NCBI GenBank assembly: GCA_947588875.1
Contig: CANPZK010000008.1
Location: 1 to 33,664 of the forward strand
Origin: an uncultured Clostridia bacterium
Lineage (GTDB): Bacteria; Bacillota; Clostridia; Oscillospirales; Acutalibacteraceae
DNA length: 33,664 nucleotides
Direction of reading: 5' to 3'
The notes beneath the pieces were generated by a model. That model was not told the DNA's origin. It made no database searches and saw nothing but the letters and a program-made list of their open reading frames with translations. Below are positions 1,243-29,162 of this stretch, one piece after another. Position 1 is the stretch's first letter. Each line of letters begins with the position of its first letter. The translations under genes were made by a program, and so were the position numbers.

Positions 1243-1400
1243 TTGTTGACCGCAGTCGCGCCGCCGCCGGCGGCGGCACTCGTTGACCGCAGTCGTCGCT
1301 GCTTAGCAGCAGCTCCGACTGCTGGTTTATATTTAATTTATTTGCAGGAGGAGCTTCGCTCCTCCTGCACCTCCACTTACTCGTTTAAAGAATATTATTT
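1243..1400. repeat. Hairpin-repeat module (family 2): stem-loops GCAGTCG...CGACTGC (1289-1322) and TGCAGGAGGAGC...GCTCCTCCTGCA (1343-1369)
   Basis: Self-complementary arms read directly. Same modules recur at 5096-5140 and 5302-5328. Confidence 0.8.
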
Positions 1401-1406
1401 TATCCC

Positions 1407-1730
1407 CACTCTCTGCCACGGAATTAATTTATGGACGCAAAAGCTCAACTTTAGAAAAATCCTTGTGCGAGTAGCAGGGTTGCAAAGGGGCATCGCCACT
1501 TGCCCGCTCAAAAAATTATTTTTAGCTCCACTCTCTGCCACGGAATTAATTTGCGGGCGCAAAAGCTCAACTTTAGAAAAATCCTTGTGCGAGTAGCAGG
1601 GTTGCAAAGGGGCATCGCCACTTGCCCGCTCAAAAAATTATTTTTAGCTCCACTCTCTGCCACGGAATTAATTTGCGGGCGCAAAAGCTCAACTTTAGAA
1701 AAATCATTGTGCAAGTGGCAGAGGACTTGC
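1407..1730. repeat. 122-bp tandem repeat, two full units plus a partial third
   Basis: CACTCTCTGCCACGGAATTAATTT... starts at 1407, 1529 and 1651 (period 122). Units 1 and 2 are near identical. A diverged single copy lies near 5365-5450. Confidence 0.95.
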
Positions 1731-2187
1731 GAACGTCGCAGGTATTAATATTGCAAATAAACCTTTGAGCGGACAAAAGGGGGCATACGGGGGAGCTTTG
1801 CTCCCCCGTATTAAACCTAATTTCAAAGTAGCAGTCGCGCCGCCAGTGGCGGCGTGACTGCGGTCGGCGGGGCTTGCGAACGGAGCAGATATTAATATTG
1901 CAAATAAATCCTTTTAGCGAGTGGCAGAGGACTTGCGAACGTCGCAGGTATTAATATTGCAAATAAACCTTTGAGCGGACAAAAGGGGGCGTACGGGGGA
2001 GCTTTGCTCCCCCGTATTAAACCTAATTTCTAAGTAGCAGCTTTACCGGCGCAAGTCGGTAAAGCTGCGGTCGGCGGGAGCAAGCACGGGGCGCAGATAT
2101 TAATATTGCAAATAAATCCTTTTAGCGAGTGGCAGAGGACTTGCGAACGTCGCAGATACTAATATTGCAAATAAATCCTTTTAGCGA
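1715..2187. repeat. About 207-bp tandem repeat (two full units and a partial third), each full unit carrying a CGGGGGAGC hairpin and a GCAG...CTGC hairpin
   Basis: GTGGCAGAGGACTTGCGAACGTCGCAG recurs at 1715, 1921 and 2129. Hairpins at 1786-1810, 1831-1861, 1992-2016 and 2037-2068. Confidence 0.9.
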
Positions 2188-2197
2188 GAGGCGGGGG

Positions 2198-2225
2198 TGC
2201 AGGGGGAACGCCAGTTCCCCCTGCA
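2198..2225. repeat. Hairpin TGCAGGGGGAAC-gcca-GTTCCCCCTGCA of the family-2 repeats
   Basis: 12-bp perfect inverted repeat. Same flank (CTGCAAATAGAT) as the hairpin right arm at 5600. Confidence 0.8.
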
Positions 2226-2239
2226 AATAGATATATTTT

Positions 2240-2316
2240 AAGTAGCAGTCGGAGCTGCTGCCAAGCAGCGCCGACTGCGGTCGGCGAGAGCGGTCTTAGG
2301 CTGCAAGCCAAAAAAA
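2240..2316. repeat. Left arm of the 77-bp inverted repeat bracketing cadA-arsR
   Basis: The reverse complement aligns with 5061-5137 with about 4 mismatches by eye. Confidence 0.9.
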
Positions 2317-2362: not shown

Positions 2363-4495
2363 TTATATCCTCTTTCTCATTATCCGCATGGCGTTGAGCA
2401 CGGCGATTATCATAACTCCCACATCGCCGAACACAGCCTCCCACATACCGGCGACCCCGAAAGCGCCGAGAATCAGAAACAGGAGCTTAACGCCCAAGGC
2501 AAAGGCTATATTCTGAATTACTATGCCCTTTGTAGCCCTCGCGACCTTTAAAGCGTCTGCGAGCTTGGACGGTTCGTCGGTCATAAGCACGACGTCGGCG
2601 GCTTCAATGGCGGCGTCCGAGCCAAGCCCGCCCATGGCGACTCCTATATCGGCTCGGGCGAGCACAGGAGCGTCGTTTATTCCGTCTCCGACAAAGGCAA
2701 GACTTGATCCGGCGCTCTTAGTTTCGTTCAAGCGCTCCAAAGCCTCTACCTTTTGGTCAGGAAGAAGTCCGGCGTGATACTCGTCTATGCCGATTTTTTC
2801 GGCAGCGTCGGCGGCTATTTTCTCGCTGTCGCCGGTCAGCATGGCGACACGCCTCACTCCGAGCTTTTTAAGCTCGGCTACCGCTTTAATGCTGTCGCCC
2901 TTTATCTCGTCGGAGATGAGTATGCACCCGACAAACGAACAGCCCCTCGCGACGTACACGACGGTTCCGACCTTGGCGCAGGGAATAAAATCAACCGAAT
3001 ATTTTCTCATGAGCTTGTCGTTCCCGACGAGTATTTTTTCCCCGTTTTCAACCGCGATTACCCCGTGACCCGATATTTCCTCATAATTTTCGAGCCGCTC
3101 AACGTCTGTTCCCGATTTGTATTCGCTGATTATGGAGCGCGCGATGGGGTGATTTGAAAGGCTCTCGGCGGTAGCGGCGAGCCTCAATACCTCGTCCGAG
3201 CCGAAGCCCGCCGCGGGTATTATATCAGTCACCCTGAAAACGCCCTTGGTAAGCGTTCCGGTCTTGTCAAAAACCACGGTTTCCAGCTTGCTCAGAGCCT
3301 CCAGATAATTGCCGCCCTTTACCAAAACTCCTCTCTTTGAGGCCGCTCCGATTCCTCCGAAAAACGTGAGCGGTATTGAAATGACGAGGGCGCAGGGGCA
3401 GGATATTACGAGGAATACAAAGCACCTTCTGAGCCACTCCGCCCATTCTCCGCCGAAGAGCAGAGGAGGAACAACGGCGAGCGCCGCAGCGAGAATTACG
3501 ACTGCCGGAGTATAGTATCGTGCGAATTTTGTGATAAAGTTTTCGCTCTTTGCCTTTCTGCTCGAGGCGTTCTCCACGAGGTCTATTATCCTTGAGGCGG
3601 TGGAGTCGCCAAACGACTTCTCGACCTCGATTTCAAGTATGCCGCTCTGATTTACACAGCCCGACATAACGCGGTCCCCGAGCCTTGCCGACCTCGGCGT
3701 TGACTCTCCGGTGAGGGCTATTGTGTCGAGCATGGACTCGCCGCTCACAATGACCCCGTCGAGCGGTATCCTCTCGCCCGGTTTTACCATTATCCTGTCG
3801 CCTATCGACACATCATCGGGAGATACCTCGGCGTACCCGTCGCCGCGCCTTACGCGCGCGCGGTCGGGCCTTATATCCATTAAATCCGATATTGAGCGTC
3901 TGGAGCGCTTTACCGCGAGCCGCTGGAAAAACTCCCCAATCTGATAAAAGAGCATGACTGCGACCGCCTCGGGATATTCACCTATCGCGAATGCGCCGAC
4001 CGTTGAGAGCGTCATAAGGAAGTTCTCGTCGAACACCCTTCCCTTTAATATGTTCCTCAGGGCTTTCCACACTACGTCCGCTCCGAGGATAATATAAGCG
4101 AGAATAAATATTCCGAGCCAATAATAGCTTGCGGCATTGAAAAAATACAGAGCCATACCCAAGGCATAAACAGCCGCTCCCGACGCGAGCCTTATCGTCG
4201 TCAGCCTATCGGAGCTATTTTCGCCGTCCGGCTCTCCCTCAGCCTTTTCGCCCGACCTCTCACACGACTTTTCGCCCGCCTCGCTTACCGAAACGTCCGG
4301 CTCGTGCTTGTGGACTATATTTTCAACATCGGAAAAAAGGTCGCCCTTATACCGTCGGTCCGCCGTGACAGTGAGCGTCTGCTTGATGAGGTTTACCGAC
4401 GAGGAGCTGACTCCCGCGAGGGTTCCGACCTCTTTTTCTATTTTTGCAGAGCAATGCGGGCAATCGAGGCCCTTTAATACAAATACCTTTTCCAT
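2363..4495 (-). CDS. cadA: Heavy-metal-translocating P1B-type ATPase (Zn/Cd/Pb type)
   Basis: 710 aa with N-terminal HMA motif GLDCPHCSAKIEKEV, SCPCALVISIP, DKTGTLT and GDGINDAPVLARADIGVAMG. Adjacent ArsR regulator. Confidence 0.93.
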   Translation of the reverse strand: MEKVFVLKGLDCPHCSAKIEKEVGTLAGVSSSSVNLIKQTLTVTADRRYKGDLFSDVENIVHKHEPDVSVSEAGEKSCERSGEKAEGEPDGENSSDRLTTIRLASGAAVYALGMALYFFNAASYYWLGIFILAYIILGADVVWKALRNILKGRVFDENFLMTLSTVGAFAIGEYPEAVAVMLFYQIGEFFQRLAVKRSRRSISDLMDIRPDRARVRRGDGYAEVSPDDVSIGDRIMVKPGERIPLDGVIVSGESMLDTIALTGESTPRSARLGDRVMSGCVNQSGILEIEVEKSFGDSTASRIIDLVENASSRKAKSENFITKFARYYTPAVVILAAALAVVPPLLFGGEWAEWLRRCFVFLVISCPCALVISIPLTFFGGIGAASKRGVLVKGGNYLEALSKLETVVFDKTGTLTKGVFRVTDIIPAAGFGSDEVLRLAATAESLSNHPIARSIISEYKSGTDVERLENYEEISGHGVIAVENGEKILVGNDKLMRKYSVDFIPCAKVGTVVYVARGCSFVGCILISDEIKGDSIKAVAELKKLGVRRVAMLTGDSEKIAADAAEKIGIDEYHAGLLPDQKVEALERLNETKSAGSSLAFVGDGINDAPVLARADIGVAMGGLGSDAAIEAADVVLMTDEPSKLADALKVARATKGIVIQNIAFALGVKLLFLILGAFGVAGMWEAVFGDVGVMIIAVLNAMRIMRKRI

Positions 4496-5060: not shown

Positions 5061-5137
5061 TTTTTTTGGCTTGCAGCCTAAGACCGCTCCCGCCGCCCGC
5101 AGTCGTCGCTGCTTGGCAGCAGCCCCGACTGCTACTT
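5061..5137. repeat. Right arm of the 77-bp inverted repeat bracketing cadA-arsR
   Basis: Inverted match to 2240-2316, including TTTTTTTGGCTTGCAGCCTAAGACCGCT and the CAGTCG hairpin. Confidence 0.9.
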
Positions 5138-5700
5138 TGAAATTAGGTTTAATACGGGGGAGCAAAGCTCCCCCGTATGCCCCCTTTTGTCCGCTCAAAT
5201 AGTTTATTTGCAATATTAGTATCTGCGCCGCTCACAAGCCCCGCCGACCGCAGCTTTACCGACTTGCGCCGGTAAAGCTGCTACTTAGAATTTAATCTAT
5301 TTGCAGGAGGAGCTTCGCTCCTCCTGCACCTCCACTCACTCGCTCAAAGAATATTATTTTATCCCCACTCTCTGCGACGAAATTAATTTACGGGCGCAAA
5401 AGCTCAACTTAAGAAAAATCTTTGTGCGAGCGGCGGGGTTGCAAAGGGGCTGCAAGCCCCTTTGAGAACTATCCTAATTTTAAACCAGCAGCCGTGCCGC
5501 CGCAGGCGGCGTGGCTGCGGTCAACGAGTGTCGCCACAGGCGGCGCTCCAAGCCGAAGCGATTTTTGGGTACCGCAAGAGGGAACGCGAAGCTCCTCCTG
5601 CAAATAGATAGAATATAAAGCAGCAGTCGGCGATGCCGATGAGCATCGCCGACTGCGGTAAACGTGAAGGCAAGGGGTTTCAGGGGAACCGGAGTTCAAC
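5138..5700. repeat. Composite array of family-2 hairpin repeats, mostly in inverted order relative to 1243-2310
   Basis: Hairpins at 5153-5177 (TACGGGGGAGC), about 5255-5286 (GCAGCTTTACCG), 5302-5328 (TGCAGGAGGAGC), about 5490-5518 (CAGCCGTGCCGCC) and 5623-5656 (GCAGTCGGCGATGC). Confidence 0.85.
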
Positions 5701-11235: not shown

Positions 11236-11372
11236 CGGGCGGCGACCCGCAAATTTCCGCTGCGCGGAAATTTGCGGGAAAACGCGGCGGGCCCGGCTTT
11301 TTGCGGCGGGGCTGGGTCCCTGCCCCCCGCCGCGTTTTCCCCGCGCGGCTGCGCCGCGCCGGTCGCCGCCCG
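11236..11372. repeat. Cloverleaf palindromic repeat, copy A
   Basis: Outer stem CGGGCGGCGACC (11236-11247)/GGTCGCCGCCCG (11361-11372). Hairpin 1 CGCAAATTTCCGC-tgc-GCGGAAATTTGCG (11248-11276). Central stem AAAACGCGGCGG (11279-11290)/CCGCCGCGTTTT (11327-11338). Hairpin 2 GCGCGGC-tgc-GCCGCGC (11343-11359). Confidence 0.93.
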
Positions 11373-11452
11373 AAACCGCAGCTCCCGCTCAAAGCCGTCG
11401 GGACGTTCACCCTGCCTCCACGCAATGCCGCCCCCTGTCGCGTGAAACGCCC

Positions 11453-15395: not shown

Positions 15396-15567
15396 TTCGG
15401 GCGGCGACCGTTCCGCGCCTCCGGCGCGGAACCGAAAAACGCGGCGGCGGGGGTCGGTTCAGCTCACCTTTGGGGCGCGTTTCGGCTTTTGGGGCGCGCT
15501 CCGCTGGAGCCCCCTGCCCCCGCCGCGTTTTTCCGCGCGGCTGCCGCCGCGCGGGTCGCCGCCCGAA
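15396..15567. repeat. Cloverleaf palindromic repeat, copy B
   Basis: Outer stem TTCGGGCGGCGACC (15396-15409)/GGTCGCCGCCCGAA (15554-15567). Hairpin 1 GTTCCGCGCC-tcc-GGCGCGGAAC (15410-15432). Central stem AAAAACGCGGCGG (15435-15447)/CCGCCGCGTTTTT (15520-15532). Hairpin 2 CGCGCGGC-tgcc-GCCGCGCG (15534-15553). Further outer pair GGCTGTCG (15353-15360)/CGACAGCC (15605-15612). Confidence 0.93.
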
Positions 15568-27436: not shown

Positions 27437-27572
27437 TTCGGGCGGCGACCGGCGCGGCGCGCCGCGCGGAAAACGCGGCGGGGCTGCGTCCTTCCCCGCT
27501 ATGAGAGCCCCCTGCCGCCGCGTTTTCGGCAAATTCCCGCCGGAGGCGGGAATTTGCGGGTCGCCGCCCGAA
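27437..27572. repeat. Cloverleaf palindromic repeat, copy D
   Basis: Outer stem TTCGGGCGGCGACC (27437-27450)/GGTCGCCGCCCGAA (27559-27572). Hairpin 1 GCGCGG-cgcg-CCGCGC (27452-27467). Central stem AAAACGCGGCGG (27470-27481)/CCGCCGCGTTTT (27515-27526). Hairpin 2 GCAAATTCCCGCC-gga-GGCGGGAATTTGC (27529-27557). Further outer pair GGCTGCCGC (27390-27398)/GCGGCAGCC (27608-27616). Confidence 0.93.
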
Positions 27573-27618
27573 CCCCAGCCTCCCGCTCAAACCCAAGGGA
27601 AGAGCCTGCGGCAGCCGT

Positions 27619-28834: not shown

Positions 28835-29050
28835 ATCGCCAATGAGCGCCGCTTGTGGCGGATGAAGCGAATTGGGGATGGCGCAGCGGTCAAAAATCGT
28901 CGGCGCTCCAAGCCGAAGCGATTTTTGGGTACCGCAAGAGGAATCGCCAATGAGCGCCGCCTGTGGCGGATGAAGCGAATTGGGGATGGCGCAGCGGTCA
29001 AAAATCGTCGGCGCTCCAAGCCGAAGCGATTTTTGGGTACCGCAAGAGGG
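28835..29050. repeat. 108-bp tandem duplication, two units of a hairpin repeat
   Basis: ATCGCCAATGAGCGCCGC(T/C)TGTGGCGGATG... at 28835 and 28943. One internal mismatch seen. Each unit has a GCGGT-c-AAAAATCG...CGATTTTT...ACCGC stem. Confidence 0.95.
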
Positions 29051-29088
29051 AACGCCGGTTCCCCCTGCAAATAAAAAAGTTTTAAGCA

Positions 29089-29120
29089 GCAGCTTTACCG
29101 GCGCAAGTCGGTAAAGCTGC
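29089..29120. repeat. Family-2 hairpin GCAGCTTTACCG...CGGTAAAGCTGC
   Basis: Identical arms and loop to 2037-2068, same 3' flank GGTC. Confidence 0.9.
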
Positions 29121-29162
29121 GGTCCCACGCCGCCTGCACATCAACATAAATTAAAATCCATA

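Follow-up and report, generated by a model that had tools for sequence, protein, structure and literature searches.

Paired hairpin stems in a REP/BIME-like repeat family of gut Clostridia probably turn over as cassettes at fixed sites

We describe a dispersed family of two-hairpin DNA repeats in related gut Clostridia in which the stems of both hairpins (H1 and H2) change while their pairing is retained, H1 and H2 types assort nearly independently, and whole stems or H1-plus-linker blocks are replaced at orthologous sites whose flanks and position stay unchanged. The stems of the family turn over at fixed sites, and this is probably the work of recombination between copies together with template switching, acting on the stem cassettes of a REP/BIME-like family in such a way that pairing is preserved; both processes are inferred from the footprints they would leave in sequence rather than directly observed. 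The starting point was a 33,664-nt stretch (the window) of contig CANPZK010000008.1 from an uncultured Clostridia bacterium of the Acutalibacteraceae, whose genome (G000) was compared with five congeners (G001-G005).

The tandem units and the element they carry

Two tandem units, unit 1 at 1715-1920 and unit 2 at 1921-2127, repeat with a period of 206 bp. Outside one hairpin core they are 94% identical (173 of 184 aligned columns), whereas in the H2 core between GCAG and CTGC identity falls to 33% (8 of 24 aligned columns; Fisher P = 2e-11), which confirms the original prediction that the units share near-identical flanks and differ in a hairpin. Both hairpins lie where it had placed them, GTAGCAGTCGCGCCGCCAGTGGCGGCGTGACTGCGGTC at 1828-1865 in unit 1 and GTAGCAGCTTTACCGGCGCAAGTCGGTAAAGCTGCGGTC at 2034-2072 in unit 2. 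It had further proposed that both arms were swapped between fixed borders; the upper stem does differ, but the GCAG and CTGC borders are themselves paired as the foot of the H2 stem, so that the full stem measures ~14 bp and the difference is confined to its upper part. The pattern GTAGCAG-N(0,30)-CTGC has seven matches in the window versus 0.24 in shuffles, and both units, folded as single-stranded DNA, reach z values of about -6 to -7 against shuffles, with good folding on both strands in each. The hairpin difference between the units is real, exceeds chance expectation, and belongs to a family of structured repeats.

The differing hairpin is the second of two in a repeat of ~120 nt, laid out as G-rich hairpin H1, A/T linker, and G(T/C)AGCAG-H2-CTGCGGTC. 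The 5' part consists of TTTGAGCGAG, a G-run, and H1 with its variable G-rich stem; the linker ends in TAAA and is followed by G(T/C)AGCAG, the variable-stem H2, and the closing CTGCGGTC. The unit 1 copy (1753..1872, + strand; covariance-model match of 100.8 bits) has H1 at 1785..1811 (+; ATACGGGGGAGC-ttt-GCTCCCCCGTAT) and H2 at 1831..1861 (+; GCAG-TCGCGCCGCC-agt-GGCGGCGTGA-CTGC), the core of which occurs once in the regions sampled. The unit 2 copy (1959..2079, +; 114.4 bits) carries a nearly identical H1 at 1992..2017 (+), and its H2 at 2037..2068 (+; GCAG-CTTTACCG-gcgcaag-tCGGTAAAG-CTGC) is the most frequent H2 of the family, with 28 occurrences in the same regions.

These copies belong to a cluster (1220-2330) that fills the gap between two convergent genes, a GerAC-like spore germination gene on the left (181-1218) and, on the right, a minus-strand gene for a heavy-metal P-type ATPase (2363-4495). 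The cluster also holds a third tandem copy at 2168..2289 (+; H1 2198-2225, H2 2245-2278 with arms TCGGAGCTGCTG..CAGCGCCGA), a head-to-head partner copy at 1278..1400 (-), whose left flank has its syntenic counterpart at a site in G005 bearing a different H2, and an additional H2-like half element with a GCGCC/GGCGG stem at 1252..1280 (-), which is the closest relative of the unit 1 arm inside the window. At 1394..1721, the central region of the head-to-head unit is amplified in tandem (122-bp period, 2.7 copies). Elsewhere in the window, covariance-model matches comprise a copy at 5088..5210 (-), a complete head-to-head unit at 5239..5529 with a 50-nt centre (copies 5239-5359 on the minus and 5410-5529 on the plus strand), a degenerate copy with an intact H2 at 5553..5667 (+; 38.9 bits), and a partial copy at 29042..29124 (+), whose G005 orthologue is without most of the right arm of H1, the linker, and H2. 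Other repeats were noted in passing. G000 has two copies of a 108-bp unit, ATCGCCAATGAGCGCC...CCGCAAGAGG (window 28835-29056), where G005 has a single one at the orthologous position, and a module related to this unit lies at 5530-5580, in front of the degenerate element copy; short repeats outside the element family, at 11340-11374, 15520-15567, and 27523-27576, share 20-mers with other G000 loci.

Covariation, assortment, and distribution of the family

Covariation was assessed in 149 distinct aligned copies against 500 shuffles and controls in which the pairing partner was slid along the sequence. Standard pairs occupied 97.4% of pair cells (79.6% when shuffled) and double-changed cells numbered 618 (179 when shuffled), while the covariation score was 0.495, compared with 0.172 for shuffled and 0.06-0.09 for slid partners, with all 500 shuffles lower; the alignment had been fitted to the model's own structure, which favours covariation, though the margin is large. 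H2 is highly varied, with 112 different sequences among 150 copies, and the family contains the sub-families with alternative complementary stem residues that are a trait of REP repeats. Stems in the sister genomes can be ordered into a graded series (CTTTACC/GGTAAAG, CTTTGCC/GGTAAAG, CGTTGCC/GGTAACG, CGTTGCC/GGCAACG). Among distinct stems, mispairs on the modelled strand were G.T in 63 and A.C in 21 cases, an excess that suggests the modelled strand, as RNA or single-stranded DNA, to be the folding one, with a P value weakened by the relatedness of the copies.

Within genomes, pairwise distances in the left and right arms were closely correlated (0.94 for H1, 0.92 for H2), those of H1 and linker less so (0.47), and those of H1 and H2 hardly at all (0.11). 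Tight linkage of the arms and near absence of linkage between the hairpins indicate that each stem moves as a unit and that the two hairpins move separately.

An exact-pattern search recovered 13 copies in G000, 22 in G004, and 13 in G005, and the covariance model at least 110, 150, and 134, respectively, with none in G001-G003. Across 300 sampled genomes of the bacterial family, covariance-model copies were numerous only in these three; three of the 300 had one weak match each (28-30 bits), and exact-pattern matches beyond the three genomes look like chance. Neither viral contigs (exact-pattern search) nor plasmids (blastn) yielded anything. In 853 kb of regions taken around matches we counted 206 copies, of which 13 have their midpoint in a called ORF, as befits a high-copy extragenic palindrome of the REP kind. 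Of 74 clusters, 36 lie in convergent gaps, a preference when set against 71 of 380 gaps (P = 3e-7), whereas divergent gaps, 73 of the 380, are avoided and hold 6 clusters. A simple terminator role was rejected despite this preference for convergent sites, as no T-run follows either hairpin, and neither a tRNA nor an Rfam family was matched (Rfam 15, none above gathering score).

The head-to-head and tail-to-tail dimers and clusters typical of REP repeats are also present. Head-to-head copies, their 5' H1 sides facing across a centre of typically 14-110 nt, are frequent and mostly form units of 240-280 bp that start with GACCGCAG and finish with CTGCGGTC. G004 additionally has tail-to-tail neighbours, linked through a conserved spacer of 27 nt; at two loci (L204, L207) this spacer is palindromic and the partners differ in H1/H2 subtype, like distinct left and right ends. 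Separately, a tandem of ~164-bp copies lies beside an element copy in G005 (L216:9189-9733), where the G000 orthologue is apparently single copy.

The same loci in two sister species

G000 and G005 are sister species, and the flanks of compared loci are mostly 85-98% identical between them. Over 25 orthologous pairs, median identity was 0.92 for flanks, 0.77 for H1, 0.72 for the linker, and 0.78 for H2; equal divergence of arms and flanks would have spoken against the exchange envisaged in the original prediction, and the two are not equal. Whole stems are replaced at orthologous sites with the element position held within a few bases. For example, L222:1410 and L252:4406 differ almost solely in the tip of H2 (CCtttGG vs GGCGCAAGG), and at L238:2783 and L243:10579 the linker is largely retained and H2 exchanged between colinear flanks. 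The reverse combination, with H1 and linker replaced and H2 retained, was seen at L218:3389/L210:5633 and L223:3038/L254:4503, in position to within 1-3 bp. In 18 of 25 comparisons H2 had a closer match among the paralogues of its own genome than in its orthologue, and in three the orthologue was nearer; the test pits a single orthologue against the best-matching of many paralogues and is biased toward the latter.

Smaller changes accompany these replacements. Between L231:11 and L211:7330 a compensatory G-C to A-T change in the stem goes together with an inverted loop (GGCGCAAGTC to GACTTACGCC), a combination that PMC8794818 treats as the strongest evidence obtainable for template switching and that was found here in this one case. 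Among stems of the same length, two-sided changes affected 6 of 180 pairs, each going from Watson-Crick to Watson-Crick, and nine pair changes were one-sided, two of them via G.T. One site is occupied in G000 and empty in G005 (L239 against L279), an insertion polymorphism flanked by 12/13-bp direct repeats that are imperfect and whose motif recurs in this genome, and partial deletions were seen at L235/L280 and at window 29042/L277.

The assemblies behind these comparisons are all fragmented (and metagenome-derived where named), with contigs that frequently terminate within these repeats. The window cluster at 1220-2330 is syntenic with G005 on its left only, the right flank lying on another contig (C3 and C31), which marks either a rearrangement point or a place where one of the assemblies broke. 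Similar breaks at L199, L198, and L230 could be repeat-mediated rearrangements or assembly errors.

Candidate mechanisms and relation to known repeats

How might such turnover proceed? Homologous recombination or gene conversion could copy blocks between dispersed copies, the homology for exchange being offered by the fixed segments (the 5' GAGCGAG region, the GYAGCAG foot, and the CTGCGGTC foot) and the blocks moved being H1-linker and H2. A replication template switch inside a hairpin would produce smaller rewrites in which both arms are changed, or the loop inverted, in one step. Ordinary compensatory substitution contributes in addition, and selection, or repair, would favour the folding of one strand. 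Units 1 and 2 would then be tandem copies that came by H2 cores of different subfamilies through such turnover. The templated or cassette-like exchange of the original prediction is partly, indeed largely, supported: colinear loci carry different H2, and the separability of H1 and H2 together with the one compensatory change with loop inversion argues for a templated component. Its view that point mutation could hardly explain the difference needs tempering, as compensation also proceeds point by point, through wobble intermediates and short steps between Watson-Crick pairs. Nor do units 1 and 2, being paralogues, catch one locus in the act of switching.

Several other explanations were weighed. 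Ordinary RNA-like evolution, whereby a transcribed, folding element accumulates successive compensatory point mutations via G-U and the two units are old paralogues from different subfamilies, would account for the graded stem series and for the 63 G.T against 21 A.C, as expected of a strand folding as RNA or single-stranded DNA. We nevertheless consider it unlikely as the whole account, since whole stems of unrelated sequence are found at one and the same orthologous site, with flanks that are ~92% identical, L222/L252 differ in the H2 tip and almost nothing else, the loop at L231/L211 is inverted, and H1 and H2 are nearly unlinked. Less likely still is that the copies are active MITE- or REPIN-like mobile units, with site differences arising from repeated or nested insertions and deletions instead of conversion of a resident copy. 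The head-to-head inverted pairs of mostly 240-280 bp, the filled and empty site with its matching direct repeats, the patchy occurrence within the genus, and the additional tandem copies at some loci all fit mobility; most compared sites, however, are filled in both species, many in the same register within a few bases, and partial-module replacements occur that re-insertion would not yield. The search for Y1 transposases (PF01797; controls such as E. coli positive) found none in G005 (87% complete), one in G000, which is IS200-like, and two in G004, in assemblies that are incomplete and in which a gene could have been missed. IS200/RAYT mobilisation was rejected because none of the Y1 transposases found has element hairpins around it. 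The G000 gene (L044, contig C138; a 176-aa open frame) shares its contig with apparent toxin-antitoxin-like and restriction-modification-like genes, as read by eye.

Variable stems within fixed feet and separable cassettes are also what a dedicated site-specific system would leave if it exchanged arms between copies by recognition of those feet, and the bolder form of this idea, an enzyme that recognises the fixed feet of the folded hairpin and swaps stem cassettes so that sequence is deliberately varied and structure kept, strikes us as improbable. Nothing points to a dedicated arm-exchange system; no candidate gene was found or linked in the genomes searched, and homologous recombination with template switching suffices, which leaves the site-specific reading very improbable. 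Most doubtful of all is that short-read assembly joined different repeat copies into apparent arm swaps: the 173 contigs, many ending inside copies, and synteny breaks at some clusters speak for it, but swaps also lie within doubly colinear loci (L222/L252, L238/L243, L233/L212, L203/L243), and the covariation agrees across three separate assemblies. Recombination between copies with template switching remains our preferred explanation, with points against it that we acknowledge: the G.T intermediates and graded stem variants imply that stepwise substitution contributes, the synteny breaks at several loci could be assembly errors, the 206 copies include a single clear loop inversion, and the genome searches found no mobilising enzyme.

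The closest known kind is the REP/BIME/REPIN group, where head-to-head dimers and stems with alternative complementary residues have been described before (PMC3733652, PMC3116915). Like the REP GTAG superfamily (PMC3733652), the repeats described here are small high-copy extragenic palindromes with alternative complementary stems in sub-families, G-T pairs, dimers joined head to head or tail to tail, and clusters amplified with flanking DNA. A tag resembling GYAG marks the foot of the stem, but here it overlaps the stem (the last G of G(T/C)AG is the first paired base, whereas the REP tag lies outside it). Unlike REP repeats, these repeats have a regular second hairpin (H1) and an A/T linker, and their stems exchange at orthologous sites; their host is a Clostridia lineage, and neither Clostridi- nor Firmicutes appears in the text of PMC3733652. 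As no RAYT was found in these genomes, we describe the family as working in the manner of a REP-type repeat but do not class it as REP. REPINs (PMC3116915) are likewise intergenic inverted doublets in which compensatory hairpin changes are reported to be common, but they terminate in strongly conserved 16-mers and are linked to a RAYT, while the stems here vary strongly. MITEs share the size (100-400 bp), inverted halves, non-coding nature, and high copy number, but no parent transposon was identified for our elements and a possible target-site duplication is seen at one site only, imperfectly. The template-switch study (PMC8794818) also reports multi-base compensatory changes, along with compensatory change and loop inversion as at our one orthologous locus, though in RNA genes (rRNA, microRNA) rather than in a dispersed DNA repeat with fast stem turnover. 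That gene conversion shapes REP evolution was proposed long ago, as a question in the title of a 1988 review cited in PMC12306157.

There is no evidence here for a new dedicated machine; the family is instead a natural experiment on stem change, bearing on the long-standing question of how a stem can alter both its arms while avoiding broken intermediates. Three related genomes together supply hundreds of its hairpins, many of them at orthologous sites, with steps ranging from a single wobble to whole-stem replacement, and with such a family one can tell apart how fast compensatory mutation, gene conversion, and template switching each proceed. The family also brings gut Clostridia into the range of REP-like repeats, here with an architecture of two cassettes.
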